Assembly: GCF_000519005.1 (NCBI RefSeq)
Contig: NZ_JAER01000011.1
Coordinates: 1-64,000, forward strand
Direction of reading: 5' to 3'
Source of the DNA: Nocardioides sp. J54
Lineage (GTDB): Bacteria > Actinomycetota > Actinomycetes > Propionibacteriales > Nocardioidaceae
DNA: 64,000 nucleotides
Position 1 is the first letter of the stretch; each line of letters begins with the position of its first letter. The translations under genes were made by a program, and so were the position numbers. Below, one piece after another: positions 5,111 through 49,296 of this stretch. The notes under the pieces were generated by a model. It worked only from the letters and a program-made list of their open reading frames with translations, ran no database searches and was not told where the DNA came from.

Positions 5111-5440
5111 GTGTTCCGCGCTTCCGCGGATTACGCCGACGACTTGACCACAACGCTTCAACGCGCGGGCTTCCATGCAGAGGTTCCGCTCTCGCATGCA
5201 GCCCACGGCCAGCAGGCGATTGAGATTCTCGTGAGCCTCGGGAAGGCAGCGGCAGGAATCGATGCCCTCGCGAAGGTTCTCGCTGCTGTTCTGGCAAGGC
5301 ACGACAAGAAACGCGTTGTGCTTCCTGACGGGACCACCCTGGACGGCTACGGCGCAGCCGGCGTTAGCAAGGTTCTCAATGCGCTTCACGGCAACGGTTC
5401 CGGGTCAGCCCCGGATCCGGGTCCGTCAAGCGGGATGTGA
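5111..5440 (+). CDS. EACC1-like (effector-associated constant component) small protein, possibly frameshifted at its 5' end
   Basis: Plus-strand frame of 109 aa inside an otherwise minus-strand block. The part ALEILVSLG-like (here QAIEILVSLGKAAAGIDALAKVLAAVLARHDKKRVVLPDG) followed by a short beta strand resembles the EACC1 class of small proteins that accompany conflict-system effectors in actinobacteria. The only start in this frame is GTG at 5111. A separate upstream frame from ATG 5052 encodes MTAPLELRLAGGDPSVA, which looks like the missing N-terminus; joining needs one extra base near 5100. Its 3' end overlaps the convergent coupling-protein gene by 15 bp. No effector gene is adjacent. 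Confidence 0.45.
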   Translation: MFRASADYADDLTTTLQRAGFHAEVPLSHAAHGQQAIEILVSLGKAAAGIDALAKVLAAVLARHDKKRVVLPDGTTLDGYGAAGVSKVLNALHGNGSGSAPDPGPSSGM

Positions 5441-19900: not shown

Positions 19901-19965
19901 CGGATTCCCACCGCGCACAAGTGGGCCAGACGGCCCGGCGCCCCAACACCCACGGATACCCCCAC
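16927..19965 (-). CDS. MMPL-family exporter, 1012 aa
   Basis: Large MMPL/RND transporter. First half: an N-terminal span (28-48), a periplasmic loop and a six-span block with AGTDYCVFLISRFREAFG. The middle region, roughly residues 480-720, is a long hydrophilic segment with repeating L-x2-G-x2-Q-L-x2-G units, the YhgE/Pip-like repeat seen in some MMPL proteins. The second block carries VGADYNILLMSRMRENG. It is transcribed divergently from the TetR gene at 20072; the intergenic region holds operator copy 2, about 20 bp upstream of this start. Substrate unknown; lipid export is likely. Confidence 0.9.
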   Translation of the reverse strand: MGVSVGVGAPGRLAHLCAVGIRFPRVVVVGWLIAAAAVTFGLPSLPSVVERNSAAFLPEDAPTLAALHRMDEAFGSGRTESFAYVVFRNEKGLSAADTRAYRNLVRTLQANEERVSDVQHFVGNKEARQQLVSEDGQAAYLVVGLTSGIGSPDSEQDVHWLREQVDELSAPSGTTTHVTGDPAMITDLTTEVNAASVRITVVSGLLLVIILLIIYRRITTVLLTLVTIGVALACARGVLAWAGEQGMALSTYTDAFVTAIVLGAGTDYCVFLISRFREAFGRGIDPLAAVEESATRVGPALVASAGTVILAAICLGFTKLAIFSTTGPPMAICVAVTVAVSLTFTPALMVWFGPRIGPARTPTPTSAWSRVGQLVARRPARVLLVGTAVLVALAAFLPTMVISYDQRNSQPEETPSNQGLTVLEEHFPRNETLPDYLLVESPRDMRNPKDLAVLNEVSRAVAKVDGVTGVRSITQPAGTPLKPASIARQLKRLANGLGRASDGLEEGQPGLERLSSGSTQLADAIDQVANGADQAHDGVGQLVSGTNDLTDGLGRAAKNTRGAAQGARRLQTGAATLATGLQTAHDQVSIAVDGIDLIVQALNRDLLCTADPICRRSREGLAQIHRGLKNELLPGLQKAANGAARIARGQGRLAGGLDSLAAGLNQAKKGSKQITKGQRILRTRLGQMADGTNQIAGNAEAFAPGIEELISQTSVLAENLERSESYLRTVNRQANTPEAGGFYLPASALRDQRFAYARDVFLSPDGRVARIQVTGDTDPLSPDGLRRFDEAQATAESALNQTRLDDATISGTGAAGLGADLNRYLYDDAKLVLAAVLLVVLLLLIITLRSLAAPLYLLASVALSCAAALGLTTLVFQDILGHDIQFPVPVITFVLLVAVGADYNILLMSRMRENGTTLTRAAVAEAVTLTGPVITSAGIIFASTFIALLSSPVITLAQTGFAVAAGLLLDTFVVRSLIVPACAALLENHNWWPARNPRHSEQPAASRAKTAS

Positions 19966-20071: not shown

Positions 20072-20650
20072 ATGCGGCAACTGCCAGCAACGATCGCGAG
20101 CAAGCTCTACGGCGCAGCAGAGCTGATCGCCGAGCGCGGCATCACCGAGGCCAAGATGGACGACATCGCCGCCGCCTCCGGCATCCCCCGCGCAACGCTC
20201 TACTACTACTTCACAGGCAAGGACGAGATCCTGGCCTTCCTACTCACCGACATGCTCGAAGCCATCGCCGGGGAGGTTGCGGCCGCCGTCGGCACCCCCG
20301 GAACCGCCCGCGAGCGTCTCGAAGCCGCGGTCCACGCGCAGATCGCCGTCATGCTCGACCAGCCGGCCGCATGCCGAGCGCTCGTGGGTGACCTTGGTCG
20401 TGCCACCAGACTCCCGGAGCTGGCCCACGCCCTCCAGGAGGCTTTCCAGCGACCCATCGAACAACTTCTCGACGAAGGCGCCGCCGATGGATCGCTACAG
20501 GTCCAGCCCCACCCCGAAGACGCCTCGCTCGCGATCTTCGGCGCCATCACCGTCGCCGGTCTCTACCACGCCGTCGAAGACACCCGCCCGTCCGCAGAAC
20601 AAATCGCGAAACGGGTCCTCGCTGTACTGATGCAGGGCCTTGCTGGCTAG
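20072..20650 (+). CDS. TetR-family transcriptional regulator
   Basis: 192 residues; HTH ITEAKMDDIAAASGIPRATLYYYFTGKDEILAFLL at about 24-58 is a textbook TetR recognition unit. The ligand domain is helical and hydrophobic. It is divergent from the 1012-aa MMPL exporter with the TTGTACT palindrome between them, so it most likely represses that exporter and itself; the second copy of the palindrome suggests it also controls the P450 at 9318-10496. Confidence 0.9.
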   Translation: MRQLPATIASKLYGAAELIAERGITEAKMDDIAAASGIPRATLYYYFTGKDEILAFLLTDMLEAIAGEVAAAVGTPGTARERLEAAVHAQIAVMLDQPAACRALVGDLGRATRLPELAHALQEAFQRPIEQLLDEGAADGSLQVQPHPEDASLAIFGAITVAGLYHAVEDTRPSAEQIAKRVLAVLMQGLAG

Positions 20651-20898: not shown

Positions 20899-21909
20899 TC
20901 ACCAGCTCCGGCACGATTCTCGAAACTGCCGTGGAGACCGGCCCGTCCACCGCTTGAAGGCGTGCGAGAAGTTGGTGAGGTCGCTGTAACCGAGGTCAAC
21001 GGCGATCTCGCTGACCGACATGGATCGGTCGAGTAGCCGTAGCGTGGCGCGCTCAAGCAACGACGACTCGAGCAACTCGCGGAACGTGGTGCCCTCCTCG
21101 TGGAGGCGCCGTTTGAGGGTGCTGGCGGACACTGACAGCTCCTCGGCGACCGTCCGGCACGTCTTGAGCGCTGCAGCTTCGTCCAACGACGCTCGTACCT
21201 TGGCCGAGTACGACGTGGGTCCGACCCTGTGCTCGAGAGCTTCCCGGAGGTCGGCAATGGCGAGCCGATAGGCAACGGGATCGGAGAATCGACAGACCTC
21301 ATTCAGAGCCTCGGTGGGCACGTGGAGGAACGTCATCGGGGCGTTGAAAACCATGTTCCCGGGCCGCGCTTCGTCCTGATCCACGTCGGTCGGTGCTGGC
21401 CAACTCGTGTGCAGTCTGACGGTTGATTCGTCGCCGACGAGCATCTGGACCAATCGCCGCAGTGCGGCGCCGCAGTAGGTGACGATCAGGCAGTCCAGGT
21501 CCGAATCACCTATGTGGCCTGTGAGCCCAACCGTGAGTCCCTCTTCGTTCGGATGGAACCGTGTCGTGACGGCCGTCGTGATCAAGGGAAGATACGTGAG
21601 CAGTTCCATGATCTCGGCTACGGACCCTGCGCTGATGAGCGGAACGCTCAAGGGGCCGAAAGAGGTCAACTGAGCGTGTTCTGCGAACGCGTGGCCGAGC
21701 TTGGTTGCTTGTTCGGCGTCAAGCTCGGGGTAGACCTCCCGGAACCACCGCACCGGGACCTGGCCCTCAAGCTGCAGCAGCGTCGGATCGGCGGCACTCT
21801 CGCGAGTCATGATGGCGCGGAACTGTGCGACCGCGTGCGCGTCGAGCGCTTGGCTCTCGAGCAACTGCGCGAATGCGGTGTAGGGGACACCCGGTTCGGT
21901 GAAGCTCAT
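20899..21909 (-). CDS. AraC-family regulator (CypR-like)
   Basis: 336-residue regulator with an N-terminal arabinose-binding-like sensor domain (LLTYLPLITTAVTTRFHPNEEGLTVGL region) and a C-terminal double HTH: VAEELSVSASTLKRRLHEEGTTFRELL, then VSEIAVDLGYSDLTNFSHAFKRWTGRSPRQFR. The start MSFTEPGVPY at 21909 is preferred over a frame running to 22137, which would overlap the divergent ferredoxin gene. AraC-type regulators adjacent to CYP153 operons are known alkane-responsive activators in actinobacteria (CypR in Dietzia); by context this gene should activate the operon starting at 22031. Confidence 0.88.
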   Translation of the reverse strand: MSFTEPGVPYTAFAQLLESQALDAHAVAQFRAIMTRESAADPTLLQLEGQVPVRWFREVYPELDAEQATKLGHAFAEHAQLTSFGPLSVPLISAGSVAEIMELLTYLPLITTAVTTRFHPNEEGLTVGLTGHIGDSDLDCLIVTYCGAALRRLVQMLVGDESTVRLHTSWPAPTDVDQDEARPGNMVFNAPMTFLHVPTEALNEVCRFSDPVAYRLAIADLREALEHRVGPTSYSAKVRASLDEAAALKTCRTVAEELSVSASTLKRRLHEEGTTFRELLESSLLERATLRLLDRSMSVSEIAVDLGYSDLTNFSHAFKRWTGRSPRQFRESCRSW

Positions 21910-22030
21910 CGAAGCCTTTCTCTGACCCGAACTCACAACTATCTGGATCCGGTGAACATAGCCAGGCCCGGCGCCCGCGGCAAGAGTTTGAGCAAGGCAT
22001 TGCGGCCCCCGACATGCACCAGGAGTTGTT
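21910..22030. promoter_or_regulatory. Divergent promoter region, AraC gene / CYP153 operon
   Basis: 121 bp between divergent start codons. A ribosome site AGGAG precedes the ferredoxin ATG, and a GAAAGG precedes the AraC-gene ATG. The AraC-type activator should bind here, but no clear direct repeats could be picked out by eye. Confidence 0.5.
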
Positions 22031-22351
22031 ATGGCAGTGGTTACTTTCGTGTCGCACGACGGCGAGACACACGCGGCGTCCCTGGAGGAAGGGCAGTCGT
22101 TGATGCAGGTCGCGACGAACAACGCGGTGCCCGGCATCGACGGCGACTGCGGGGGCGAGGCTGCGTGCGGGACCTGTCACGTCATCGTTGACCCTCCGTG
22201 GTCGGACCGCGTGGGGCCATCCGGTGCCGACGAGGAGCAGATGCTCGCCATGAACCCCGAGCGTGAACCGACCTCTCGGTTGTCCTGCCAGATGGTGGTC
22301 TCCGAGGCCTGGAACGGACTGACTGTCCGGCTGCCCGAATTCCAGATGTGA
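22031..22351 (+). CDS. [2Fe-2S] ferredoxin (P450 redox partner)
   Basis: 106-residue plant/adrenodoxin-type ferredoxin. Cluster cysteines are C40, C46, C49 (CGGEAACGTC) and C86 (RLSCQM). It would carry single electrons from the ferredoxin reductase at 23760-24977 to the CYP153-type P450 encoded next. Start has an AGGAG site. The stop lies 23 bp upstream of the P450 ATG, so it is the first gene of the operon. Confidence 0.93.
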   Translation: MAVVTFVSHDGETHAASLEEGQSLMQVATNNAVPGIDGDCGGEAACGTCHVIVDPPWSDRVGPSGADEEQMLAMNPEREPTSRLSCQMVVSEAWNGLTVRLPEFQM

Positions 22352-22374
22352 TCAACGAGAGGAGCGTCGAAATC

Positions 22375-23763
22375 ATGAGGATTCCTGAGGCGATCACTGC
22401 CAAAGTTCAGTCAGCCATCCCGATGGAGCGGCAGATCCAGGGTGCGCATCTCTACGACAAGACGAGGAGGTGGGTGACGGGCACCAACGGTGAGCGAATG
22501 TTCGTCGAGCGTCCCATCCCGCCAGTCGAAGAAGTCGAGCTCGCGGACATCGACCTCAGCAATCCGTTCCTGTACCGACAGGGCCGTTGGCAGTCCTACT
22601 TCCAGCGGCTGCGGAACGAGGCTCCCGTCCACTATCAGTCGAACAGCCCGTTCGGGCCATTCTGGTCGGTCACCCGGCACGCCGACATCATCGCCGTCGA
22701 CAAGAACCATGAGGTCTTCTCAGCCGAACCCTTGATCGTGATCGGCGTGCCACCCCGCTTCCTCGATATCGAGATGTTCATCGCAATGGACCCGCCGCGG
22801 CACGACCTGCAGCGGCAGGCGGTCCAGGGCGTTGTCGCGCCGAAGAACCTCCGCGAGATGGAGAGTCTCATCCGACAGCGCGTCCGCGAGGTCTTGGACG
22901 GCCTTCCGGTCGGCGAACCCTTCAACTGGGTGCAACACGTGTCGATCGAGCTGACGGGCCGCATGCTGGCCACTTTGCTCGACTTTCCGTACGAGCAACG
23001 ACACAAGCTGACCTACTGGTCAGATCTTGCGTCGTCGATGGAGCAGGCGAACGGCGGTCCCTCTGACAACGACGAGGTCTTCCACGGAATGCGCGACATG
23101 GCGCGAGGTCTCAGCGCGCTCTGGCATGACAAGGCCGCCCGAACTGCCGCAGGGGAGGAACCGGGCTTCGATCTGATCACCATGTTGCAGAGCAACGAGA
23201 ACACCAAGGACCTGATCGATCGCCCCATGGAGTTCCTCGGAAACCTGGTGCTGCTGATCGTCGGGGGCAACGACACGACCCGCAACTCGATGAGTGGCGG
23301 CGTTCTTGCGCTCAACCAGTTCCCCGATCAATTTGAGAAGCTGAAGGCCAACCCCGACCTGATCCCCAACATGGTGTCGGAGATCATCCGCTGGCAGACT
23401 CCGCTCGCCTACATGCGCCGGATCGCCAAGGCGGACACAGTCCTGAACGGCCAGTTCATCCGCAAGGGCGACAAGGTCGTGATGTGGTACGCCTCCGGCA
23501 ACCGCGACGAGACCGTGTTCGAGCGTCCGGATGAGCTGATCATCGATCGGCCCAACGCGCGCAACCACATCGCCTTTGGCTTCGGCGTCCACCGCTGTAT
23601 GGGCAATCGGCTGGCCGAGCTCCAGCTGAGGGTCCTGTGGGAGGAACTGCTCCCGCGCTTCGAGAAGATCGAGGTCGTGGGGGAGCCGGAGTACGTACAG
23701 TCCAACTTCGTACGGGGCATCAGCAAGCTGATGGTCCGGCTCACCGCGAAGCCCACCGCATGA
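22375..23763 (+). CDS. CYP153-type cytochrome P450 (terminal alkane/fatty-acid hydroxylase)
   Basis: 462 residues from ATG 22375, which has a GAGGAG site; an upstream GTG frame adds only nine residues. Strong CYP153 markers: FIAMDPPRHDLQRQAV, I-helix LLIVGGNDTTRNSMSGGVLALN, ExxR in EIIRWQTPLAYMRR, and heme loop AFGFGVHRCMGNRLAELQLRVLWEELLPRF with Cys near 408. The family hydroxylates the terminal carbon of medium-chain alkanes, alcohols or fatty acids. It has its own ferredoxin upstream and reductase downstream (start overlaps this stop by 4 bp), a complete three-component system. Confidence 0.92.
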   Translation: MRIPEAITAKVQSAIPMERQIQGAHLYDKTRRWVTGTNGERMFVERPIPPVEEVELADIDLSNPFLYRQGRWQSYFQRLRNEAPVHYQSNSPFGPFWSVTRHADIIAVDKNHEVFSAEPLIVIGVPPRFLDIEMFIAMDPPRHDLQRQAVQGVVAPKNLREMESLIRQRVREVLDGLPVGEPFNWVQHVSIELTGRMLATLLDFPYEQRHKLTYWSDLASSMEQANGGPSDNDEVFHGMRDMARGLSALWHDKAARTAAGEEPGFDLITMLQSNENTKDLIDRPMEFLGNLVLLIVGGNDTTRNSMSGGVLALNQFPDQFEKLKANPDLIPNMVSEIIRWQTPLAYMRRIAKADTVLNGQFIRKGDKVVMWYASGNRDETVFERPDELIIDRPNARNHIAFGFGVHRCMGNRLAELQLRVLWEELLPRFEKIEVVGEPEYVQSNFVRGISKLMVRLTAKPTA

Positions 23764-24977
23764 GCGTGCAGCGAGCGGTGATCGTCGGGGCAAGCCATGC
23801 CGGTGCCCAAGTCGCCGCCAGTCTGCGCCAGGAAGGCTGGGCCGGCGAGGTTGTCCTGGTCGGTGACGAGTCGGCACTTCCCTATCAACGCCCTCCCTTG
23901 TCGAAGGACTACCTGGCAGGGAAGAGCACACTCGCGGAACTGGCGATCCGCAGCGCAGAGTTCTACGCGCGCCAAGAGATCCGCCTTCTCGGTGCGACCG
24001 TGGAGCGGATCGACCGCTCTGCTGGTCGAGTATCGCTGAGCACCGGCGAGTCGCTGGGCTACGACAAGCTGGCTTTGTGCACCGGCGCGCGTCCGCGACG
24101 GCTCCGGGTTCCGGGAGCCCACCTTGCCGGAGTCCACTACCTTCGCACCGCCGCGGACGTGGATTTGATCAGAGCGACAGCCAAACCGGGCAGCAGGGCG
24201 GTGGTCGTCGGTGGCGGCTATGTCGGGCTGGAGACGGCCGCCTCACTCCGCGCGCTGGGTCTCGACGTCACCGTCCTCGAGGCGACCGAGCGAGTCCTCG
24301 AACGCGTGACGGCCCCCGAGGTCTCGGCATTTTTCGATCGAATCCACCGTGAGGAGGGGGTGTGCATTCAGACGAGCGCCCTGGTCGAGGCCCTCGCGGG
24401 TGATGCTCGGGTCCGCGAAGTGGTCCTGTCCAGCGGTGAATCAGTCCCGGCAGACCTCGTCATTGTTGGTATCGGTATCGAGCCGAACACTGAACTCGCC
24501 GCATCCGCTGGCCTGGTGATCGACAACGGTGTCGTGATTGACGACCGGGCCCGGACCAGCGATCCGGACATCGTCGCGGCCGGCGACTGCACGAGTCGAG
24601 ACATCGCCCGCTACGGCAGTCGGGTCCGCCTGGAGTGCGTGCCCAGTGCGGGGGAGCAGGCGAAGGCGGCGGCCGCGACAATCTCTGGAAAGTGCAGGGA
24701 GATTACGGCGCTTCCGTGGTTCTGGTCAGATCAGTACGACGTCAAGCTCCAGATCGCTGGACTCAACACCGGGTACGACGAAGTCGTCCTCAGCGGTGAT
24801 CCGAACCGGGACCGCGACTTCACCTGCTTCTACCTCCGCCAAGGCGAGCTGATCGCCGCGGACTGTGTCAACCGCCCCCGCGACTTCGTCTTCAGCAAGC
24901 GGCTTCTAACGCAAGCAACTCAGGGCGTTGGGCGGGCAGAGTTGCCCCTGGTGACCGTGAGTGACCTCGGTGCGTGA
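23760..24977 (+). CDS. Ferredoxin reductase (FAD/NAD, P450 system)
   Basis: 405-residue pyridine-nucleotide:ferredoxin oxidoreductase. FAD-binding Rossmann fold at the start (VIVGASHAGAQVAASLRQ), NAD-binding fold in the middle (VVVGGGYVGLETAASLR), and a second FAD contact IVAAGDCTSRD, with the rubredoxin/putidaredoxin-reductase C-terminal domain (WFWSDQYDVKLQIAGL). It passes electrons from NAD(P)H to the ferredoxin. ATG overlaps the P450 stop (ATGA), giving coupled translation. Confidence 0.92.
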   Translation: MSVQRAVIVGASHAGAQVAASLRQEGWAGEVVLVGDESALPYQRPPLSKDYLAGKSTLAELAIRSAEFYARQEIRLLGATVERIDRSAGRVSLSTGESLGYDKLALCTGARPRRLRVPGAHLAGVHYLRTAADVDLIRATAKPGSRAVVVGGGYVGLETAASLRALGLDVTVLEATERVLERVTAPEVSAFFDRIHREEGVCIQTSALVEALAGDARVREVVLSSGESVPADLVIVGIGIEPNTELAASAGLVIDNGVVIDDRARTSDPDIVAAGDCTSRDIARYGSRVRLECVPSAGEQAKAAAATISGKCREITALPWFWSDQYDVKLQIAGLNTGYDEVVLSGDPNRDRDFTCFYLRQGELIAADCVNRPRDFVFSKRLLTQATQGVGRAELPLVTVSDLGA

Positions 24978-25095
24978 TGGCCCTCGAGTCGAATCACCGT
25001 CGTGGCCTGAGTCGGGCCGCGGTTGTCCGGAGAACCGGCCCATCAGGTAGTCGCAGGACAACGAGAAGCGGAACCGCTCGTAGAAGGGACAACCG

Positions 25096-26553
25096 ATGAC
25101 GAACCTCCTTCGGCTGGCGCCGAACCGACGCGCCCGACTGTCGTCGGTGCTTCTCGTCCCGCTACCGGCTCGGGTAGACAGAGCCCTGTGTGAGGCCCAG
25201 GACCGGTGGCCGGTCCGCGACCTCGCCCCCGTTCCGGCAGGCTCGGGCCTCAAGTCCGTTCAAGGGACGGCCGGATTCCCGGTTCTCGGCCACACCCTGG
25301 ACTACATCCGATACGGATCCGACTTCGCGCGTGCCAGACACGAGCGGCTCGGGCCGGTGACGTGGATGGGCGCCTTTGGCACCAAGGTGGTGGTAGTGGC
25401 CGGCCCGGACGCCACACAGGAGGCGCTGACCACCAAGGCGAAGTCCTTCTCTCAGGACGGATGGACCTTCCTCATCGATGCCTTCTTTCACCGGGGCCTG
25501 ATGCTGATGAGTTTCGACGAACACAAGATGCATCGACGGATCATGCAGGAGGCGTTCACCCGCGATCGGCTCGCTGGATACGTCAACCAGCTCGGACCGA
25601 CGCTGGAGGCGCGAATCCCGGAGTGGACTGCCGGCAAGTCCACGCGCATCTACCCGCTGCTCAAGACGCTGACCCTGGACGTTGCGACAGAGGTCTTCAT
25701 GGCAGGGCGGGGCGGACGCGAGGACGCCGCTGCGATCAACGAAGCCTTCGTGGCGACCGTGCGCGCCGCCAGCTCGATCGTCCGGGTCCCGCTGCCTGGC
25801 ACGCGCTGGAGAGCCGGTGTCCGTGGGCGCGCCTTGCTGGAGGCCTATTTCGCGCGTCACCTTCCGGCAGCGCGCAACGGTCAGGGCAGCGACCTCTTCG
25901 CGGGACTGTGTCATGCGCGGACGCCCGAAGGACAGGCCTTCACCGACGAGGACGTCATCAACCACATGATCTTCTTGATGATGGCGGCCCACGACACCTC
26001 CACCATCACCACCGCGGCCGCCGCCTACTTTCTCGCCAAGCACCCGGCGTGGCAGGAACGGGCCCGGACCGAGTCCGACCGCATCGGTGAACGGACCCCG
26101 AACATCGACGACCTGGAGTCGCTGGTGACTCTCGATCTCGTGATCAAGGAAACGCTGCGCCTGGCGGCGCCAGTGCCGATCGTCATGCGCAAGACCATCG
26201 AGGATGCAGAGATCGCGGGTCACCACATTCCAGCTGACACACTGGTGGCCGTCGCTCCGGCGGTCAACCACTTCGATGAATCGTGCTGGACCGACCCTGA
26301 CGCCTTCGACCCGAGCCGATTCAGCGAGCCGCGGCGCGAGGACCAGCATCACCGCTTCGGGTGGATCCCGTTCGGCGGGGGAGTGCACAAGTGTATTGGT
26401 CTCCACTTCGGAACACTCGAGGTCAAGGCGATCCTTCACCACATGCTGCGCAACTATCGATGGACGGTCCCCGACGGCTACGAAGTCAGATGGGACAACA
26501 CATCCCTACCGATTCCGGTAGACGGGCTGCCGATCACACTGGAGCGACGATGA
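25096..26553 (+). CDS. Second cytochrome P450, long type (CYP51/CYP136-like)
   Basis: 485-residue P450 with a longer N-terminus than the soluble bacterial norm. After a basic leader (1-45) comes TAGFPVLGHTLDYIRYG and the P450 fold: I-helix MMAAHDTSTITTAAAAYF, KETLRLAAPVPIVMRK (ExxR) and heme loop PFGGGVHKCIGLHFGTLEVK with Cys near 433. The layout resembles sterol/fatty-chain P450s such as CYP51 or CYP136 rather than CYP153. It lies 118 bp after the reductase gene and its stop overlaps the next start (ATGA). Substrate unknown. Confidence 0.87.
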   Translation: MTNLLRLAPNRRARLSSVLLVPLPARVDRALCEAQDRWPVRDLAPVPAGSGLKSVQGTAGFPVLGHTLDYIRYGSDFARARHERLGPVTWMGAFGTKVVVVAGPDATQEALTTKAKSFSQDGWTFLIDAFFHRGLMLMSFDEHKMHRRIMQEAFTRDRLAGYVNQLGPTLEARIPEWTAGKSTRIYPLLKTLTLDVATEVFMAGRGGREDAAAINEAFVATVRAASSIVRVPLPGTRWRAGVRGRALLEAYFARHLPAARNGQGSDLFAGLCHARTPEGQAFTDEDVINHMIFLMMAAHDTSTITTAAAAYFLAKHPAWQERARTESDRIGERTPNIDDLESLVTLDLVIKETLRLAAPVPIVMRKTIEDAEIAGHHIPADTLVAVAPAVNHFDESCWTDPDAFDPSRFSEPRREDQHHRFGWIPFGGGVHKCIGLHFGTLEVKAILHHMLRNYRWTVPDGYEVRWDNTSLPIPVDGLPITLERR

Positions 26554-27275
26554 GTCGCGCACCAGCGACGCTCCTGGCGGCGACCGAGTTTCTCGACACC
26601 GAGCACGAGGACGTCCGCGCCTTCACCGAGGCCACCGTGGGGGACGCGCGCAGCGACAAAGAAAAGGCGAAGCGCCTCTTCACTGCTGTCCGCGACCAAG
26701 TCTGGTACGACCCCTACACCGTGTCGACCGACCCCACCCACTACCGCGCGAGCTTCGTCCTCCAAGCAGGGCGCGCCTATTGCGTCCCGAAGGCGGTGCT
26801 CTTGACCGCGGTGTGCCGTGCAGCCGGAATCCCAGCGCGGTTGGGGTTCGCCGATGTGCGCAACCATCTGCAGACCGAATCGTTGCGAACCCTCATGGGC
26901 GGCACCGACTTGTTCGTCTACCACGGATACAGCAGCCTCCACATCGACGGGAAATGGCTCAAGGCCACCCCGGCGTTCAACGTCGAACTGTGCGCTCGTT
27001 TCGGTGTCCCGCCTGTGGAGTTCGACGGTGAGCACGACGCGCTCATGCACGCCTTCACTGGGGACGGGACCCAGCACATGGAGTACGTCCGCGACCGAGG
27101 TGTCTTTGACGACCTTCCCCTGACCGCGATCCTGACCGAGCTCCGGACCACATATGGATCGATGGTCCAGGCCTCGGCGCACGCGATCGACGACGCCTTC
27201 ACCGCCGGGCCCGCCAGCCCGGTCAGAGCCGATGGTTCCTCAGGTCGGTCCACTTCGCCTCAGGAGGATCAATGA
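26550..27275 (+). CDS. Transglutaminase-like cysteine protein
   Basis: 241 residues. Core motif GRAYCVPKAVLLTAVCRAAGIPARLGFADVRNHL holds the probable catalytic Cys, followed by YHGYSSLHIDGKWLKATPAFN with the His and acidic partner positions of the transglutaminase/NAT-like fold. Such proteins act as peptidases, amidases or acyl/amide transferases. The ATG overlaps the P450 stop, and the gene is followed directly by an aldehyde dehydrogenase gene (overlap 4 bp), so it belongs to this pathway, where it could form or cut an amide on an oxidised acyl chain (inference). Confidence 0.82.
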   Translation: MSRAPATLLAATEFLDTEHEDVRAFTEATVGDARSDKEKAKRLFTAVRDQVWYDPYTVSTDPTHYRASFVLQAGRAYCVPKAVLLTAVCRAAGIPARLGFADVRNHLQTESLRTLMGGTDLFVYHGYSSLHIDGKWLKATPAFNVELCARFGVPPVEFDGEHDALMHAFTGDGTQHMEYVRDRGVFDDLPLTAILTELRTTYGSMVQASAHAIDDAFTAGPASPVRADGSSGRSTSPQEDQ

Positions 27276-28801
27276 TCACAACGACTACAGGTGCCGCACT
27301 CGAAGTGCGCAACCCGTCCGACGGTCGGCTGGTGGGAACCGTGTCCGTTGACGACCGTGACGCCGTGAACCGCCGTGCCACGCAGCTCCGCCTGGCCCAA
27401 GGTGCATGGGCCGAGGCTGGTCCGCGGCATCGTTCCAGGTGGCTGCGCCTCTGGCGCGACTGGATCCTCGCTCACTCCGATGAGCTCACCGACCTGCTAC
27501 AGGCCGAGACGGGCAAGGTGCGTCCTGACGCTCTCGTAGAGACGACCGCGTCGTGCGAGTTCATCACCTACTACGCCGACCATGCGGAAGAGTTCCTCGC
27601 CGACGAAAGGGTCAAGACCGCGGGCGTCCTGAGCCTGCCGAAGCGACTGTCCCGGACCTACCAGCCCTACCCTCTCGTCGGTCTGATCACCCCGTGGAAT
27701 TTCCCGATCACCCTATTCCTCATGGACGCAGCCCCCGCACTGGCTGCTGGTTGCGCGGTACTGGTGAAGTCCTCGGAGGAGACACCGCTGACTTGTGCGC
27801 GGGTCATCGACGGCTGGCGTGAGATCGGCGCTCCACCAGTCCTGGCCCATGTCACAGGAGCCGGCGGCGCTGGTGCCGCAGTGGCGGACGCCGCCGACTT
27901 CGTCCAGTTCACAGGCTCGACAGCGACAGGGCGCCAGGTCGCCCTCCGCTGTGCTGAGCAGTTGAAACCGGTGAGTCTGGAGCTGGGCGGCAAGGATCCG
28001 GCGATCGTGCTGGAGGACGCCGACCTCGCTCGAGCGGCCGAGGGCGTCGCCTGGGGTGGCCTGTTCAACGCAGGGCAGGTCTGCATCTCAGTCGAGCGCG
28101 TGTATGTCGTCGCTGCGGTCTACGAGGAGTTCGTGGCCCGCCTGACAGAGCGCGTGCAGTCCCTGACCCAGGGTGCGGACGCCGGCAACGATGTCGGTGC
28201 GATGGTGACCGCGAGACAGGTTGACATCGCGGATCGCCACGTCAGCGAGGCGGTGGCGGCGGGAGCGAAGCTAGTGGCCGGCGGCAGACGGGGAGCGGCC
28301 GGAAACTACTACGCGCCAACGGTCCTCGTCGGCGTGGATCACACGATGTCCTGCATGACCGAAGAGACCTTTGGACCCACGATCCCGGTGATGCGCGTCG
28401 CCGACGAAGAAGAGGCCATCCGACTGGCCAACGACTCGCCGTACGGATTGTCGGCGACAGTGTGGACTCGCAATCACGCTCGCGCCCGCCGCGTCGCACG
28501 GCGCCTGGAGGCCGGCGCGGTCAACATCAACGACGTCTTCAGCAACCTCTTCGCGATGACGTTGCCTCACAGTGGCTGGAAGGCCTCCGGCATGGGCGCC
28601 CGGCTCGGAGGACCCGACGGGCTGCACAAGTACTGCCGCGTCCGAGCGGTCACTGAGCCGCGACTTCCCGTCCTGCCAAAAGAACTTACGTGGTACCCGT
28701 ACTCCGCCCGGCGCACGGCCATCGCCGCCACGGTCTTGCGCGCCGCAGCCGGGCGCGGCCTGCGCCAACGCCTCGGCCTGAACAAGGAACAGAGCAAATG
28801 A
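27272..28801 (+). CDS. Aldehyde dehydrogenase (succinate-semialdehyde dehydrogenase type)
   Basis: 509-residue NAD(P)-dependent ALDH that oxidises an aldehyde to an acid. Visible motifs: FTGSTATGR (cofactor loop), SLELGGKDPAIVLEDADL with the general-base Glu, and GLFNAGQVCISVERVYV with the catalytic Cys; PWNFPITLF earlier is also diagnostic. In the operon context the likely substrate is a fatty or omega-oxidised aldehyde formed after P450 hydroxylation and alcohol oxidation. The C-terminus is longer than usual and basic. Confidence 0.9.
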   Translation: MITTTTGAALEVRNPSDGRLVGTVSVDDRDAVNRRATQLRLAQGAWAEAGPRHRSRWLRLWRDWILAHSDELTDLLQAETGKVRPDALVETTASCEFITYYADHAEEFLADERVKTAGVLSLPKRLSRTYQPYPLVGLITPWNFPITLFLMDAAPALAAGCAVLVKSSEETPLTCARVIDGWREIGAPPVLAHVTGAGGAGAAVADAADFVQFTGSTATGRQVALRCAEQLKPVSLELGGKDPAIVLEDADLARAAEGVAWGGLFNAGQVCISVERVYVVAAVYEEFVARLTERVQSLTQGADAGNDVGAMVTARQVDIADRHVSEAVAAGAKLVAGGRRGAAGNYYAPTVLVGVDHTMSCMTEETFGPTIPVMRVADEEEAIRLANDSPYGLSATVWTRNHARARRVARRLEAGAVNINDVFSNLFAMTLPHSGWKASGMGARLGGPDGLHKYCRVRAVTEPRLPVLPKELTWYPYSARRTAIAATVLRAAAGRGLRQRLGLNKEQSK

Positions 28802-29631
28802 CGCGCACCACTTCCCTCCCCGCCAAGACGATTGCGATCACCGGTGGAGCTCGCGGCATCGGCTATCAGACCGCGAAGGAGCTGATCCGACGCGGTCATC
28901 GGGTCGCCATCGGCGACATCGATGAGGCCCGTGTCAAGGAGTCGGCGGATGAGCTCGGTATCTCTGCTGTCACCCGCCTCGACGTCACTGACACCGACTC
29001 ATTCCGTGCATTTCTCGACATGGTCGAGGACCAGCTTGGTCCCCTCGACGTGCTGGTCAACAACGCGGGGATCATGCCCACCGGGCACGCTCACGAGGAG
29101 GACGACGACGTGACCCGGCGGCAGGTGGAGATCAACGTCCTCGGAGTGATCTTCGGAACCAAGCTCGCCCTCCAGCGGATGCTGCCGCGGCGGGCCGGAC
29201 ACATCATCAACACCGCATCGCTGGCCGGGGAGCTCCCCGTACCGGGCCTGGCTACCTACTGCGGCACGAAGTTCGCGGTCATCGGATTCACCGAGGCAGC
29301 TCGACAGGAGTACCGCAACTCCGGAGTCCAGCTCTCCACCGTTCGGCCGACATTCACCAACACCGAGCTCGTCGCCGGCACCACCGGAGCCAAGGGGCTG
29401 CGCAACGCCGAGCCCGAGGAGATTGCTCGGGCGACAGCCGAGCTCATCGAACGTCCCCGCCCGTTCGTACGCGTCACCCGCCTCGCCGGAGGCATGGTCG
29501 CAGCAATGAAGTTCGTGCCGGGACGGTTGGCCTCCGCGCTGGGTTCGACCCTCGGCACGGATTCGGTCTTCCTCGACGACGTCGACATGGGCGCGCGCCA
29601 GGCCTACCTGGACCGAATCCGGAACAACTGA
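28798..29631 (+). CDS. Short-chain dehydrogenase/reductase
   Basis: 277-residue classical SDR. Cofactor motif AITGGARGIGYQTAKEL at the start, NNAGIMPTGH, and active site TASLAGELPVPGLATYCGTKFAV with the Ser, Tyr-x3-Lys residues. The 3' half matches membrane-associated or lipid SDRs by its basic hydrophobic tail (GGMVAAMKFVPGRLASALG). ATG at 28798 overlaps the ALDH stop. It likely oxidises the alcohol made by the P450 to the aldehyde used by the ALDH. Confidence 0.9.
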   Translation: MTRTTSLPAKTIAITGGARGIGYQTAKELIRRGHRVAIGDIDEARVKESADELGISAVTRLDVTDTDSFRAFLDMVEDQLGPLDVLVNNAGIMPTGHAHEEDDDVTRRQVEINVLGVIFGTKLALQRMLPRRAGHIINTASLAGELPVPGLATYCGTKFAVIGFTEAARQEYRNSGVQLSTVRPTFTNTELVAGTTGAKGLRNAEPEEIARATAELIERPRPFVRVTRLAGGMVAAMKFVPGRLASALGSTLGTDSVFLDDVDMGARQAYLDRIRNN

Positions 29632-29672
29632 CTCCACGCTCCAGAACCATCCGGCACACGAGAGGACGCAAC

Positions 29673-30740
29673 ATGACCGTCACCGCCTTGGTCGAGGACT
29701 ACCCCCATCGAATGGGGGGACACTGCGGCTCCGGTGCGATGCGCGATCTCCTGCACTGGCACGGTCTGGGATGGGACGGCCCGCCCGATGAGGGTCTGGT
29801 GTTCGCGCTCGGCGGCGCCCTAGGGCTCTCCTACCTCCGGTCGAGCGAACTGTTTCCCCCGCTGTACCTGGTGGGACGAGGTGCCGACTTCGAAGTCGAT
29901 CTACCGACACGACTGGGCGGAGTCGTGCAGGTGCTCACCACCGACGATCCCGGGGAGGGCTGGTCGTGGGTGCGTGAGGAACTCGACGCCGGCAGGCCCA
30001 GCCTGATCTGGGGCGACATCGCCGAGCTTCCCTATCTCCGTGTCCAGTTGCAGATGAGCCGCCACGACATCGTCGTCATCGGCTATGACGATGAGAGACA
30101 ACTCGCCTACGTCGTGGACAACGATCGCGCCGAGGCGCAGGAGGTTCCGCTGGCAGCGTTGGCTCGGGCACGGGCCTCACAGGCGTTCCCGCAACCCACT
30201 CGTCACTGCACGTACCGCATCACCTGGCCCCCCTCCTTGCCCGGCATCGCGGAAGTCGCTGCAAGCGCGTTCTCCCAATCCGCAGGCAACATGCGCAATC
30301 CGTCACGCCACAGCATTGCCGGCCCAACCACTGCCGCCGTCGGTTCCGAAGGCCTGGAGGCGGTTGCTTTGTTCGCTGACGACATCGCGACCTGGGCGGA
30401 GCTTCCCGAAGACGAACTCGGGATCTTGCTGTTCAGCCTCGGTGCCTTCATCGAGAAGGCAGGCACCGGCGGCGGACTGTTCCGCCGACTGCTCGCAGAC
30501 GGTTCCGCTGAGGTCGCACGACTGACCGGCGACCCGGCAAGCGCTGAGCTTGCGACCGAAGCCGCCCGTTGCGCACAAGGCTGGACAGACGCCGCCCGCG
30601 CCGCGGTCAAACGCGACACCCATCCGCGGTCGCGGATTGACGACCTGGTCCGGACGGCCAGCCGGCTACCGGAGTTGGAGTTGCGTCTCGTCGAGTCCCT
30701 CGAGCGTGCCGCAATCTCCTTGAACGCGAGAGATCACTGA
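29673..30740 (+). CDS. BtrH-like protein (BtrH_N / DUF4872), cysteine-protease fold
   Basis: 355 residues. N-terminal half resembles the butirosin-biosynthesis BtrH domain: YPHRMGGHCGSGAMRDLLHWHG with a candidate nucleophile Cys18, SRHDIVVIGYDDE with a His, and AYVVDNDRAE with an Asp, as in C39/papain-like acyltransferases. The C-terminal half corresponds to the DUF4872-type helical region. BtrH transfers an acyl group from a carrier protein to an amine; a comparable acyl transfer is possible here but no carrier protein gene is in the cluster. RBS is GAGGA upstream of the ATG. Confidence 0.78.
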   Translation: MTVTALVEDYPHRMGGHCGSGAMRDLLHWHGLGWDGPPDEGLVFALGGALGLSYLRSSELFPPLYLVGRGADFEVDLPTRLGGVVQVLTTDDPGEGWSWVREELDAGRPSLIWGDIAELPYLRVQLQMSRHDIVVIGYDDERQLAYVVDNDRAEAQEVPLAALARARASQAFPQPTRHCTYRITWPPSLPGIAEVAASAFSQSAGNMRNPSRHSIAGPTTAAVGSEGLEAVALFADDIATWAELPEDELGILLFSLGAFIEKAGTGGGLFRRLLADGSAEVARLTGDPASAELATEAARCAQGWTDAARAAVKRDTHPRSRIDDLVRTASRLPELELRLVESLERAAISLNARDH

Positions 30741-30817
30741 TCATCTCCATCGTCATCCCGAGGTTGCGTGCTTGCGAAATCGCTCCGTCAAGAAGTGCAC
30801 ATGAATCTAGGAATCGA

Positions 30818-30982
30818 ATGCAGAGAACGATGTTGAACGTCCTCCCGACGACCACAGCAGTTCTGCGTCACGAGCTGGCGTTGCTCTCGACGGGTGCTGC
30901 GCTGCACACCCTGGCTGCCATCGAGCTTGCCGACGGCTCGCCCCATTCGGAGGTCCTGAGGCAGACAGGGGACCAGGAGTGA
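30818..30982 (+). CDS. Small unknown protein, 54 aa
   Basis: Starts ATG 30818 after an AGGAA site and ends in a GTGA overlap with the next gene, so coupling supports it being real. Sequence MQRTMLNVLPTTTAVLRHELALLSTGAALHTLAAIELADG has one amphipathic or weakly hydrophobic helix. No family recognised. It may be an accessory peptide to the thioesterase. Confidence 0.5.
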   Translation: MQRTMLNVLPTTTAVLRHELALLSTGAALHTLAAIELADGSPHSEVLRQTGDQE

Positions 30983-31569
30983 CACGGATGTCGAAAGCAT
31001 TGGACCAAGGCGACCACCAGCATGCGCAGGGCGGCACCGAAGTAGGAGCGCCCCGCGATCGGGAAACGATCTCGCGGTGGGCGTCGCACCTCGCCGGCCA
31101 GACTCCGGTGGAGATTGGCCAGACATTGCCCCCGCACTCGCCCGACTGCGCCGGGTGCGGGCCAGATAATCCCTCCGGCCTGCATTTGCACGCGGTCCGC
31201 ACGGCGTTGGGCGTCGAAGCTGTGCATCGCTTCGCCGAGGGCCAGGTAGGCGCCCCTGGTATCGCACACGGAGGAGCGGTCGCTCTCGCTTTCGACGACC
31301 TCTTCGGGTTCGCCCTCTACACCGTTGGGTCGCTCGCCGTCACACGCAGCCTCACCATCGATTACCGAGCCCCGTTCCGGTTGCATCGGACGTACACGTT
31401 CCGTGCCCATGTGGCGCAACACGAAGGACGTCGGCTGCTACTTCATGCGGACGCGTGGGACGACGCCGGTCAGAAGGCCGGATCGGCCGGGGCCACTTTC
31501 GTGGTGGTCGGCCCTGAACACTTCACCGCGGTTGACCCAGAAACACAGCTGGAGGCGGAGTGCCGGTGA
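30979..31569 (+). CDS. PaaI-type hotdog thioesterase (second paralogue)
   Basis: 196 residues from GTG 30979 (ATG 30988 also possible). Same subgroup as the protein at 15204-15707: SPDCAGCGPDNPSG, GAPGIAHGGAVALAFDDLFGFALY and SLTIDYRAPF. Expected to hydrolyse an acyl-thioester, probably fatty acyl-CoA from the preceding oxidation steps. It has a longer N-terminus than its paralogue. Stop overlaps the PlsC start by 10 bp. Confidence 0.86.
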   Translation: MTRMSKALDQGDHQHAQGGTEVGAPRDRETISRWASHLAGQTPVEIGQTLPPHSPDCAGCGPDNPSGLHLHAVRTALGVEAVHRFAEGQVGAPGIAHGGAVALAFDDLFGFALYTVGSLAVTRSLTIDYRAPFRLHRTYTFRAHVAQHEGRRLLLHADAWDDAGQKAGSAGATFVVVGPEHFTAVDPETQLEAECR

Positions 31570-32318
31570 GGATTCATGCAATCCGGCCTGGTTGGGGCGT
31601 GGCGTGGTGGGTCGCTTTCTTGATCTGCAAGCCGGTGTTGGTGTTGGTCCGCCGTCGAGACTGGCGTGGGCTCGAACAGATCCCGTCGTGTGGCGGCGCT
31701 GTCCTTGCCGCGAACCACGTTTCCCATGTGGATCCCCTGCTCATCGCCGAGCTGGTGCTCGCGCACGGCAGGACTCCGGCCTTCTTGGCCAAGAGCAGTC
31801 TTTTCAGGAAGGGCGTCGTGGGATGGTGGTTCCGCGCTGCCGGGCATGTCGAGGTGGATCGATCGCATGGTGCGGACGGATTCGGCGCCGCGTTGATGGC
31901 ACTTCGTGGCGGTGCACTTCTCGTGGTTTACCCCGAGGGATCGATCACGAAAGACCCAGGTGGGCGCATGATGCCTCTCAAGACAGGCGCCGTCCGATTG
32001 GCGCTAGAGACAGGTGCACCGCTCATTCCGGTAGCACAGCGGGGCGCCCAAGAGATCCTCCCCGCCTATGGTCGACGGCCGAGACTGTCCAAGCGCACGA
32101 CGGTCACGATCAGCATCGGTCGTCCGCTGGATCTGACCGATCTCACGCAGCGCGGAGCCGTGCCTGACGCGGTCGATGCCGGGACGCGTCGCCTGGCGGA
32201 CACCCTCGGCCGCATGCTGGAGGAACTGGCCGATGAGCGGCCTGGCCTCGCGAACACTTCAACGGGGTGTGACAGCACCCGATATCCGGCGCGGAAGAGG
32301 GCACCGCGCACCGAGTAG
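31560..32318 (+). CDS. 1-acyl-glycerol-3-phosphate acyltransferase (PlsC-type)
   Basis: 252 residues with an N-terminal membrane segment (about 12-30). Acyltransferase block I is AANHVSHVDPLL (HxxxxD) and block III is LLVVYPEGSITKD; the GAPLIPVAQRG segment is block IV. It would transfer an acyl chain to lysophosphatidate or a related acceptor at the membrane. Start is GTG 31560, overlapping the thioesterase end. It is the last gene of the operon; only 10 bp separate it from the stop of the convergent VirB4-like gene. Confidence 0.88.
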   Translation: MPVRIHAIRPGWGVAWWVAFLICKPVLVLVRRRDWRGLEQIPSCGGAVLAANHVSHVDPLLIAELVLAHGRTPAFLAKSSLFRKGVVGWWFRAAGHVEVDRSHGADGFGAALMALRGGALLVVYPEGSITKDPGGRMMPLKTGAVRLALETGAPLIPVAQRGAQEILPAYGRRPRLSKRTTVTISIGRPLDLTDLTQRGAVPDAVDAGTRRLADTLGRMLEELADERPGLANTSTGCDSTRYPARKRAPRTE

Positions 32319-32328: not shown

Positions 32329-33819
32329 TTAGAGCATTCCAGTCATCCGGGCCGTTGTGTCGAAGAGCTGAACCTCGGCAGGATGCATCTGGTGTTGGAC
32401 GACGAACGACCGGTGCTTGATCCGCCACAAGCCTTGGCCCGTGCCGAGCGTGGGGATGAGGCTCTGTTCGGTGCCGGTGAGCCCGAGTGCGGTGGCGGTG
32501 GCGCCGAGCTGGTCGGACTCCTGGCGATAGACGATCCGTGTCTCGGCGTTCGCCAGAAGCGAGGAGGCCAACGCACGCATTGCCGAACCCTGGTCGCCGA
32601 CGTTGTCGAGGTCAGTGAGCTTGTGGAAGATCAGCATGTTCGCGATGCCGTAGTGGCGAGCGAGCCGCCAGTGCGCGTCCATCCGCCGCAGCAGGGCTGG
32701 GTGCGACATGAGCCGCCACGCTTCGTCGTACACGACCCAGCGCTGACCTCCGGCGGGATCCAGGAGCGCTGACTCCATCCACGCCGACGCGCAGGTCATC
32801 AGGACCGAGATGAGGGTCGCGTTCTCGGTGACGCGGGAGAGGTCGAGCGAGATCATCGGGAGCGTTGGGTCGAAAGTGACCGTGGACGGCCCGTCGAAGA
32901 GGCCGGCGAGGTCGCCGGCGACGAGCCGACGGAGGGCGTGCCCGACGAGTCGCCCGTCCTCGGTGAGGCGCCCATCCGGGTCGTCGGTGCGGTCCGGTGC
33001 GAGCAGCCGGTCGACGACCATCGGGAGGACGGGTACGTCGGTGCTCCGCACTGTGCGGTCGATCGCGATGTCGACGGCTGTGTGTTCGAGCGGGCTGAGG
33101 CGGCGGTCGAGCACGGTCTCGGCGAGCGCGCCGACGAGGTCTCGGCGGCGGGAGGCGATCTGGTTGGACCATTGCGCATCGTCGAGGCCAGATGGTCGGT
33201 GGCCTTCGTCGAGCGGGTTGAGTCGGTTGGGCATCCCGTGGCCGAGGGCGATGGCTCGGCCGCCTACGGCCTCGGCGACCGCGGTGTGCTCGCCCTTGGG
33301 GTCGCCGGGCACGTACACGCGGCGGCCGAACGGGATGGATCGCGTGTAGAGACTCTTGGCGAGGCAGGACTTGCCGGAACCGACGATGCCGGCAAGGACC
33401 AGATTTGGTGCGGTGATGAGGCCGCGGGCGTAGAGGATCCAGGGGTCGTAGACGAACGAGCTGCCGGAGTACAGGTCCTGGCCGACGAATACGCCCTCGC
33501 TGCCCAGGCCGCCTTCGGCAAGGAACGGGTACGCGCCCGCCAGGGTTGCTGACGTGTCCTGATGGCGTGGGACTCGGAATCGTCCGGGCGTGCGGAGAGC
33601 GGCCGGGCCCGTTTCGCCGGGGCGGGGTAGCGTCACCGTTGCCCGCTTCTCAGCCGAGAGCTGCTCAGCTTTGCGCTTCGCCTCGGTACGCCGGGCTTCG
33701 CGATCGGTGGACAGGAGCTCTCGCGCAGCCGCCTTGCGGAGCTTGCGATCGTGCCGCCGTTCGCGGCCTGGTGAGACGAGGACGGCTGAGTGGAGGCGCC
33801 CGTCCTGCCACCCGGTCAC
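32329..33819 (-). CDS. VirB4-like conjugation ATPase
   Basis: 496 residues from GTG 33819 (VTGWQDGRLHSAV), whose start overlaps the stop of the upstream 135-aa gene (GTGA). Walker A is LAGIVGSGKSCLAK near 142-154; Walker B is RWVVYDEAWRLMS; a TRIVYRQESDQLGATATALGLTGTEQ segment is typical of the family in actinobacterial elements. It would power assembly of the transfer channel at the inner membrane. The protein lacks the long VirB4 N-terminal domain; the SCO6880-type protein may supply the missing part. Confidence 0.87.
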   Translation of the reverse strand: MTGWQDGRLHSAVLVSPGRERRHDRKLRKAAARELLSTDREARRTEAKRKAEQLSAEKRATVTLPRPGETGPAALRTPGRFRVPRHQDTSATLAGAYPFLAEGGLGSEGVFVGQDLYSGSSFVYDPWILYARGLITAPNLVLAGIVGSGKSCLAKSLYTRSIPFGRRVYVPGDPKGEHTAVAEAVGGRAIALGHGMPNRLNPLDEGHRPSGLDDAQWSNQIASRRRDLVGALAETVLDRRLSPLEHTAVDIAIDRTVRSTDVPVLPMVVDRLLAPDRTDDPDGRLTEDGRLVGHALRRLVAGDLAGLFDGPSTVTFDPTLPMISLDLSRVTENATLISVLMTCASAWMESALLDPAGGQRWVVYDEAWRLMSHPALLRRMDAHWRLARHYGIANMLIFHKLTDLDNVGDQGSAMRALASSLLANAETRIVYRQESDQLGATATALGLTGTEQSLIPTLGTGQGLWRIKHRSFVVQHQMHPAEVQLFDTTARMTGML

Positions 33820-44484: not shown

Positions 44485-44501
44485 GTCCGGGGCGGCGGGG
44501 T

Positions 44502-45404: not shown

Positions 45405-45426
45405 GGGGAAAGAATACCTTGCTTTC

Positions 45427-45442
45427 ATCGACGGGGGTCGAT
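45427..45442. promoter_or_regulatory. ArsR-type operator 1 (ATCGAC-N4-GTCGAT)
   Basis: 6-bp arms around GGGG, in the divergent promoter between the ArsR-ArsN gene and the flavoprotein gene. Shares ATCGAC...GTCGAT with operator 2. Confidence 0.65.
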
Positions 45443-45455
45443 ACAGTCCAAATCC

Positions 45456-45471
45456 ATCGACGGACGTCGAT
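45456..45471. promoter_or_regulatory. ArsR-type operator 2 (ATCGACG-GA-CGTCGAT)
   Basis: Perfect 7-bp arms around GA, centred 29 bp from operator 1. The pair fits binding of two ArsR-like dimers controlling both directions. Confidence 0.7.
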
Positions 45472-45504
45472 AGATTAGCCGACTGTTCTGAGGAGTCCCC
45501 TGTC

Positions 45505-49161: not shown

Positions 49162-49296
49162 TCCTCCGCTGGCTGCGTGGATGAAGGCTGCGGACTCGGC
49201 GGTCGATGGAGCGCCTGGCCCTACCGTCAAAGGTCGTGCCGGGCTGACGTTTCGCGTGCTGGCTCGAGGGCCCGAACCGCCAACGACCACGTCCTC

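Follow-up and report, generated by a model that had tools for sequence, protein, structure and literature searches.

What do a transglutaminase-like protein (TG) and a BtrH-like protein (BtrH) do in an operon built around a CYP153 alkane hydroxylase? The question is raised by a 64,000-nt stretch of DNA from Nocardioides sp. J54 (genome size 4.75 Mb; contig NZ_JAER01000011.1, positions 1–64,000; hereafter the window), in which both genes lie between a CYP153 system and the genes for a PaaI-type thioesterase and a PlsC-type acyltransferase. A first-pass annotation, made from the sequence, had suggested that this operon makes or remodels an oxidised lipid, perhaps amide- or glycerol-linked. We find that the operon is an authentic, conserved and mobile module, and purifying selection together with the recurring gene content in relatives argues that it is not a chance grouping. 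We propose, tentatively and with somewhat less than even probability, that this mobile hydrocarbon module condenses alkane-derived acyl thioesters into an N- or O-acyl lipid.

TG and BtrH are linked to one CYP153 clade in Nocardioidaceae

We compared 294 Nocardioidaceae genomes. The CYP153 clade was delimited at an identity of at least 82%, a line set after viewing the values, which fell at 82–100% and 64–71% with nothing between. TG was found in 53 genomes, BtrH in 57 and the CYP153 clade in 54; TG and the clade coincided in 53, BtrH and the clade in 53, and BtrH and TG in 52. Fisher co-occurrence tests treat these genomes as unrelated and ignore phylogeny. The clade was thus present in all genomes with TG (53/53) and in 53 of the 57 with BtrH, and TG and BtrH were each present in 53 of the 54 genomes with the clade. 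The exceptions were four genomes with BtrH and no CYP153 of this clade (G050, G226, G230 and G288, the last with BtrH in pieces), one with CYP153 and TG lacking BtrH (G144) and one with CYP153 and BtrH lacking TG (G225). Wherever BtrH and the clade coincided (53 genomes), the closest BtrH–CYP153 pair shared a contig, at a distance of 2.4–26.1 kb (median 5.7 kb), and the gene order and strand of the module differed among loci. The nearest TG loci in named species, among the matches listed, were those of Nocardioides sp. Root190 and N. caeni.

Neither TG nor BtrH was detected in the 12 genomes that have only other CYP153 relatives (at most 71% identity), and neither was found near such relatives at 12 loci spread over 11 genomes (nine of the former twelve, with three left out, plus the source genome and G020). 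The relative in the source genome, on contig C4 (L189), is 67% identical, has its own ferredoxin and reductase, and has neither TG nor BtrH nearby. The first-pass annotation had grouped the second P450 (P450b) with TG and BtrH as extra genes that should accompany CYP153 across genomes. This was borne out for TG (53/53) and BtrH (53/57), which belong with the CYP153 clade in Nocardioidaceae, but not for the second P450, which was present in 6 of 40 Nocardioidaceae loci and is optional for the module.

The ratio of nonsynonymous to synonymous substitution (dN/dS) against two relatives was 0.14 and 0.21 for TG and 0.15 and 0.22 for BtrH, values which indicate that both genes are under purifying selection. 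A 9,971-base stretch of the operon is 99% identical to DNA in another species (G244), whereas rpoB, compared over 1,257 bases, is only 88% identical, and this difference argues for recent horizontal transfer. Relatives of TG and BtrH were found on 94 and 95 plasmid records, respectively.

BtrH is split into two frames or holds an internal stop in G207, G237, G265 and G288, and these are probably decaying copies. The first three of these genomes retain an intact BtrH as well; G288 has pieces only.

Linkage outside Nocardioidaceae

Among the best 80 TG loci from named genomes, out of at least 529 relatives, BtrH was present in 51 and CYP153 (at least 45% identity) in 35 within the stretch examined, which many contig ends cut short. 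Outside the family, TG and BtrH accompany CYP153 in Gordonia (L081), Rhodococcus (L095), Nocardia (L094) and Tsukamurella (L113), and plasmid pREL1 of Rhodococcus erythropolis PR4 is another bearer of the module. CYP153 lies within about 8 kb of TG in seven mycobacterial loci (L108, L110, L120–L123 and L130) and about 30 kb from it on the plasmid of M. chubuense NBB4. Other mycobacterial loci, among them L109, L115 and L173, carry the arrangement P450b–TG–FadD–acyl-CoA dehydrogenase–BtrH or parts of it, with no CYP153 in the stretch examined. In a phylum-wide sample, the TG profile matched 23 of 296 genomes at 1e-10 and five, the source genome included, at 2e-79 or better.

A second BtrH–CYP153 pairing was observed on two Acinetobacter plasmids, which carry genes for an AraC-type regulator, ferredoxin, CYP153, reductase, a metal-dependent hydrolase, a TetR-type regulator, BtrH and two thioesterases. 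CYP153 and BtrH relatives were each found on 45 Acinetobacter plasmid records and shared 44 of them, although these records share descent and do not represent 44 independent events; CYP153 stands without BtrH on one record only, a fragment of 4.4 kb. Identity to the BtrH query is at least 99% in 44 of its 45 records; for CYP153 it is at least 99% in 26 records and about 78–84% in the other Acinetobacter records. The Acinetobacter BtrH is only 26% identical to that of the window. In a tree of 48 rows it groups, on a long branch, with a gammaproteobacterial BtrH that has no CYP153 nearby, outside a clade labelled actinobacterial that comprises all 28 actinobacterial rows, including a few without CYP153 nearby. 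This placement tentatively suggests that BtrH and CYP153 were paired in Acinetobacter independently of the actinobacteria.

Neither protein is a general partner of CYP153. BtrH_N occurs in 19 of 369 sampled Gammaproteobacteria genomes, and none of the 19 neighbourhoods (9.6–20 kb, some ending at contig ends) contained CYP153 or TG, so we rejected this role for BtrH. Of three such loci that were scanned, two carry a ketosynthase III-type gene at a distance of two genes and the third carries efflux genes. The same role was rejected for TG, which also lies beside fab genes in Pseudonocardia and in catabolic-looking clusters on two Rhodobacterales plasmids. The Pseudonocardia loci (L132, L134, L135, L137, L144, L152 and L157) have TG near ketosynthase, acyl carrier protein, FabH-type and acyltransferase genes, a context that hints at a TG family handling acyl thioesters; the TG relative there adjoins a gene for a metallo-beta-lactamase-fold protein. 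A Metal_hydrol (PF10118) protein is encoded near BtrH on an Acinetobacter and a Mycobacterium plasmid, and a metal-dependent hydrolase is likewise annotated at the NBB4 plasmid locus (L176, L175 and L173 in all).

Predicted folds and conserved residues of BtrH and TG

BtrH scored well above the cut-offs of BtrH_N (PF14399; 136.8 against 29.7 bits) and DUF4872 (PF16169; 143.5 against 28 bits). In the alignment, Cys18 is present in all 41 rows with a letter at that position (7 of 48 rows are gapped there, probably because of late start calls), and His131 and Asp149 are present in 48 of 48. Profiles of BtrH and TG gave nothing significant against the sequences of solved structures. A model of BtrH predicted from 20 aligned sequences (mean pLDDT 87) matched best a chain of the AziU2-U3 complex (Z 24.2, 305 residues, 5.2 Å), followed by CtaG (Z 21.7, 292 residues, 3.8 Å) and CcbD (Z 20.5, 315 residues, 4.8 Å); the next matches reached only about 12. 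Likeness to AziU2-U3 and CcbD/LmbD extends over most of the protein, but identity is 13–18% and those proteins belong to antibiotic pathways. A review describes CcbD as an amide-forming enzyme with a Cys-His-Glu triad, which works by a ping-pong mechanism on its Cys, draws on carrier-bound acyl donors and can also use fatty acyl groups (PMC12945683); BtrH would likewise have a Cys-His-acid triad, with Asp149 in place of Glu. Solved variants of CtaG carry Cys11, His128 and Asp144 in their titles. The butirosin protein BtrH, described as an acyl carrier protein:aminoglycoside acyltransferase (PMC10318531), shares the PF14399 and PF16169 domains; in the operon, no genes for aminoglycosides or carriers were recognised. 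Another BtrH gene lies in a dialkylresorcinol cluster (PMC3949708). The predicted fold and conserved residues support BtrH as an acyl-transfer enzyme, possibly an amide-forming one.

TG matched Transglut_core with 59.9 bits (cut-off 23), and all 18 aligned sequences have Cys78 and His125. Its predicted model (18 sequences, pLDDT 83.6) has a fold of the transglutaminase/arylamine N-acetyltransferase (NAT) type; the best match was a putative cysteine protease (3isr, Z 15.8), followed by another putative protease, transglutaminases and NATs at Z of about 9–11. Further down, the fold lists of both proteins contain papain-like, transglutaminase and NAT folds, including the amide synthase GdmF at Z 9.2; a fold shared at that level carries little weight.

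The pair has a precedent in closthioamide synthesis in Ruminiclostridium, a pathway to which both the peptidyl transferase CtaG and a transglutaminase, CtaJ, have been assigned by proposal (PMC6772006). There, as here, a protein of the BtrH-like fold, in that case a transacylase, is teamed with a transglutaminase-type protein, with CtaJ likened to TG by its description. Closthioamide assembly is based on carrier proteins, whereas the genes described here stand in a P450/ALDH/CoA-ligase context with no local carrier found.

Operon layout and the CYP153 system

Pfam and NCBIfam models recognised every gene named in the first-pass annotation, all within 20899–32318, except a small 54-aa open reading frame (ORF). 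Gene starts were chosen by us within the ORFs, and the overlaps and gaps given here depend on that choice. The overlapping starts that had been described were present at most junctions: five by 4 nt (Fdx/CYP153, CYP153/FdR, P450b/TG, TG/ALDH and ALDH/SDR) and the PaaI/PlsC junction by 10 nt, an arrangement that fits a single operon. Gaps of 118, 41 and 238 nt separate FdR from P450b, SDR from BtrH and BtrH from PaaI, respectively.

Table 1. Features of the operon and of the surrounding element (window coordinates).
Feature	Coordinates	Strand	Basis
AraC-family regulator, divergent from operon	20899–21909	-	HTH_18 + Arabinose_bd; below curated CypR cut-off
2Fe-2S ferredoxin (Fdx)	22031–22351	+	PF00111
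CYP153, probable terminal hydroxylase of alkanes/fatty acids	22348–23763	+	PF00067
FAD ferredoxin reductase (FdR)	23760–24977	+	Pyr_redox_2 + Reductase_C
Second P450 (P450b), optional module member	25096–26553	+	PF00067, 228.7 bits
Transglutaminase-like protein (TG)	26550–27275	+	Transglut_core; predicted fold
Aldehyde dehydrogenase (ALDH)	27272–28801	+	PF00171
Short-chain dehydrogenase (SDR), PRK07825 family	28798–29631	+	NF005878, above cut-off
BtrH_N + DUF4872 acyltransferase-like protein (BtrH)	29673–30740	+	PF14399 + PF16169
Scar of deleted fatty-acid-CoA ligase	30818–30982	+	tblastn/blastn pieces against intact ligase gene of L170
PaaI-type hotdog thioesterase (4HBT)	30979–31569	+	PF03061
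PlsC-type acyltransferase	31560–32318	+	PF01553; TIGR00530 below cut-off
Tyrosine integrase	756–1994	-	PF00589
Conjugation coupling ATPase (T4CP)	5426–7183	-	PF12696, PF02534
MMPL/RND transporter adjoining operon, candidate exporter	16927–19911	-	PF03176; TIGR00833 below cut-off
TetR regulator between MMPL and AraC genes	20072–20650	+	PF00440 + PF17932
VirB4-like conjugation ATPase	32329–33819	-	NF045971, below cut-off
SCO6880-family protein, transfer region	34833–36284	-	NF042935, above cut-off
SCO6881-like protein, transfer region	36291–37616	-	NF047967, below cut-off
NlpC/P60 protein, transfer region	38332–39450	-	PF00877

The annotated CYP153 system is complete: Pfam profiles found the ferredoxin (Fer2), CYP153 and reductase (Reductase_C) genes adjacent to each other, so that CYP153 adjoins class I electron partners. 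Its assignment follows from high similarity to named CYP153 enzymes. The best solved structures (705–707 bits) are titled only 'Cytochrome P450'; lower matches include one titled 'alkane hydroxylase' and entries named CYP153A7 and CYP153D17. It is 69% identical over 452 aa to CYP153 of the Acinetobacter plasmids, which in turn is 99.8% identical to the record of EB104, which we take to be the CYP153A1 strain. The second P450 had been called CYP51/136-like; CYP51 is indeed a relative, as the second-nearest solved structure, but CYP120 is nearer.

The regulator is of the AraC type, as annotated, and an AraC gene stands at the same position in many relatives' loci. Its likeness to CypR did not extend to membership, since it scored 74.8 bits with the curated model NF053784 (cut-off 500), for which the Acinetobacter plasmid regulator reaches 501.6. 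Codon score places its start at about 21909 rather than at 22137, where the longest ORF would overlap the ferredoxin gene. AraC, ferredoxin, CYP153 and reductase genes occur in the same order in the CYP153 alkane operons of Dietzia and Acinetobacter, and two Dietzia strains other than CN-3 have a TG relative directly upstream of the AraC gene (loci L097 and L098). The main text of a study of Dietzia sp. CN-3 covers CYP153, its electron carriers and CypR and uses the words 'transglutaminase' and 'BtrH' zero times (PMC12472514). Our literature search, with subscription papers largely outside it, returned no paper for CYP153 with operon and transglutaminase (the pair CYP153 and BtrH was not searched) and none for 'BtrH N-terminal domain'.

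A deleted CoA ligase

The 54-aa ORF (30818–30982), listed in the first-pass annotation as a protein, was rejected as a gene. Its DNA matches, in order, the start of a fatty-acid-CoA ligase gene, an inner piece of it and the DNA just past its stop codon, as aligned to L170 by tblastn and blastn, and is a deletion scar of a ligase that relatives have kept. The ligase gene lies between BtrH and PaaI on the Rhodococcus plasmid pRWAY02 and was called there in 10 more loci (L040, L041, L044, L045, L048, L050, L085, L094, L095 and L096); a short BtrH–PaaI gap without a called ligase occurs in other loci too. With the ligase deleted in situ, a different ligase has to activate the acyl chain, presumably one encoded at another site of the genome.

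The surrounding conjugative element

The operon had been placed inside a conjugative-element backbone, and the integrase and conjugation genes that flank it (integrase, T4CP, VirB4-like ATPase, SCO6880/SCO6881-type and NlpC/P60 proteins; Table 1) support an integrative conjugative element. No tRNA gene was found in the window. Relatives of the adjoining MMPL transporter lie beside the module in seven loci (L039, L040, L041, L043, L057, L058 and L191).

The element also carries arsenic resistance cargo (43372–50725), with regulators of the ArsR type, a fusion of ArsR to a low-molecular-weight phosphatase and a monooxygenase that exceeds the cut-off of the ArsO family, as well as a further P450 (9318–10496) and a second MMPL transporter (12117–14456).

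Possible roles of the module

The data establish which genes are present, that they are conserved, linked and horizontally transferred, and which residues and predicted folds their products have; the chemistry, including substrates, order of reaction and export, is inferred. The protein families lead us to expect CYP153, SDR, ALDH and CoA ligase steps. CYP153 with its ferredoxin and reductase would oxidise an alkane-type chain at its end, the alcohol would be converted to the acid by SDR and ALDH and a CoA ligase, here lost in situ, would make the acyl thioester. BtrH would load the acyl group on Cys18, assisted by His131 and Asp149, and hand it to an amine or hydroxyl acceptor, perhaps forming an amide rather than an ester. 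TG would work on the same intermediate to make or trim a second acyl bond. An ester-linked chain would be attached by PlsC, and PaaI would clear stray thioesters. The MMPL pump next door may export the product, an N-/O-acyl lipid derived from hydrocarbon and perhaps surface-active. Of the lipid hypothesis in the first-pass annotation, the acyl-transfer role of BtrH thus gains from the predicted fold and the Cys-His-Asp residues, and the oxidised amide- or glycerol-linked lipid itself is compatible with the data.

Several observations weigh against the synthesis of such a lipid. A motif search of called ORFs of 80–140 aa in 131 loci, with no profile search, detected no acyl carrier protein close to the module (the motif found known carrier proteins in 9 of 9 cases), and no gene for an amine or hydroxyl acceptor was recognised. 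Carrier-dependent chemistry as in CcbD and CtaG is therefore not obvious, although a carrier encoded elsewhere or CoA donors for BtrH could still serve. BtrH scored 49.7 bits with the DarH acyltransferase model NF053550, below the cut-off of 300. The column before invariant Pro141, where the third triad residue of TG is expected, holds Thr or Ser in place of Asp, with Asn144 invariant nearby, as read from the alignment without geometry. TG matched only in pieces in 4 of the 53 TG genomes (G013, G079, G179 and G256), and the match holds one stop in three (G069, G264 and G275); in those seven genomes TG may be dispensable and some copies broken. At the Acinetobacter locus viewed, BtrH occurs but TG does not. 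On two alphaproteobacterial conjugative plasmids, of Frigidibacter and Pseudosulfitobacter (L171 and L172), TG lies among genes for CoA-transferase, thiolase, MaoC, acyl-CoA dehydrogenase and CoA ligase, and BtrH is absent from the 18.7 kb viewed around it. Neighbours that recur in the 131 loci are FadD (52), acyl-CoA dehydrogenase (43) and NDMA-ADH (22). Finally, AziU2-U3 acts in aziridine formation in azinomycin synthesis; the nearest fold match would thus be an aziridine-forming and not an amide-forming enzyme, which slightly lowered the probability that we give to the proposal and is included in it.

The absence of a recognised carrier or acceptor gene nearby, the catabolic company of TG and the FadD, dehydrogenase and NDMA-ADH neighbours make a catabolic role a close rival, one that we consider possible though well short of even probability. 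BtrH and TG would then be thioesterases, transacylases or amidases that free CoA or open a special acyl intermediate (branched, cyclic or terminally oxidised), and the operon would only degrade hydrocarbons. The recurrence of the SCP2 family in the loci fits such a role, as does a CYP153 mutant of Dietzia sp. CN-3, whose growth was clearly poorer on pristane and slightly poorer on hexadecane (PMC12472514). However, the operon already contains the thioesterase PaaI, and the 12 loci of other CYP153 relatives with no TG or BtrH nearby indicate that CYP153 as such needs neither. Moreover, of the three solved structures nearest to BtrH in fold, two belong to enzymes described as amide-forming (PMC12945683, PMC6772006).

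It is improbable that BtrH and TG instead acylate or cross-link proteins, such as the P450, a surface protein or a carrier. Both models also match protein-acting transglutaminases and papain-like proteases, but no annotated recurrent neighbour family resembled a protein substrate (secreted proteins were not searched for), and CcbD and CtaG are described as acting on small or carrier-bound molecules (PMC12945683, PMC6772006). About as improbable is that the genes ride the same mobile island as CYP153 with no functional link: the operon does move horizontally, its content is mosaic, with the second P450 and FadD coming and going, and a few TG copies look broken, but TG and BtrH are retained under purifying selection while order, strand and distance vary, and BtrH is paired with CYP153 a second time in Acinetobacter.

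Implications

As a soluble alkane hydroxylase, CYP153 has been widely studied and is relevant to bioremediation and biocatalysis. In its widest form our proposal is that CYP153 oxidation in actinobacteria feeds an undescribed pathway to hydrocarbon-derived N-/O-acyl lipids, in which a BtrH-fold transacylase acts with a TG-fold partner and which is spread by conjugation, the Acinetobacter plasmids having perhaps recruited their BtrH independently; we regard this wider claim as rather unlikely as a whole. The near-constant presence of an acyl-transfer-type pair beside one CYP153 clade, and the pairing in Acinetobacter, would mean that some of the pathway has so far gone unnoticed. These bacteria may do more than burn alkanes, and the oxidised chain may end up in a lipid or be treated as a special thioester.

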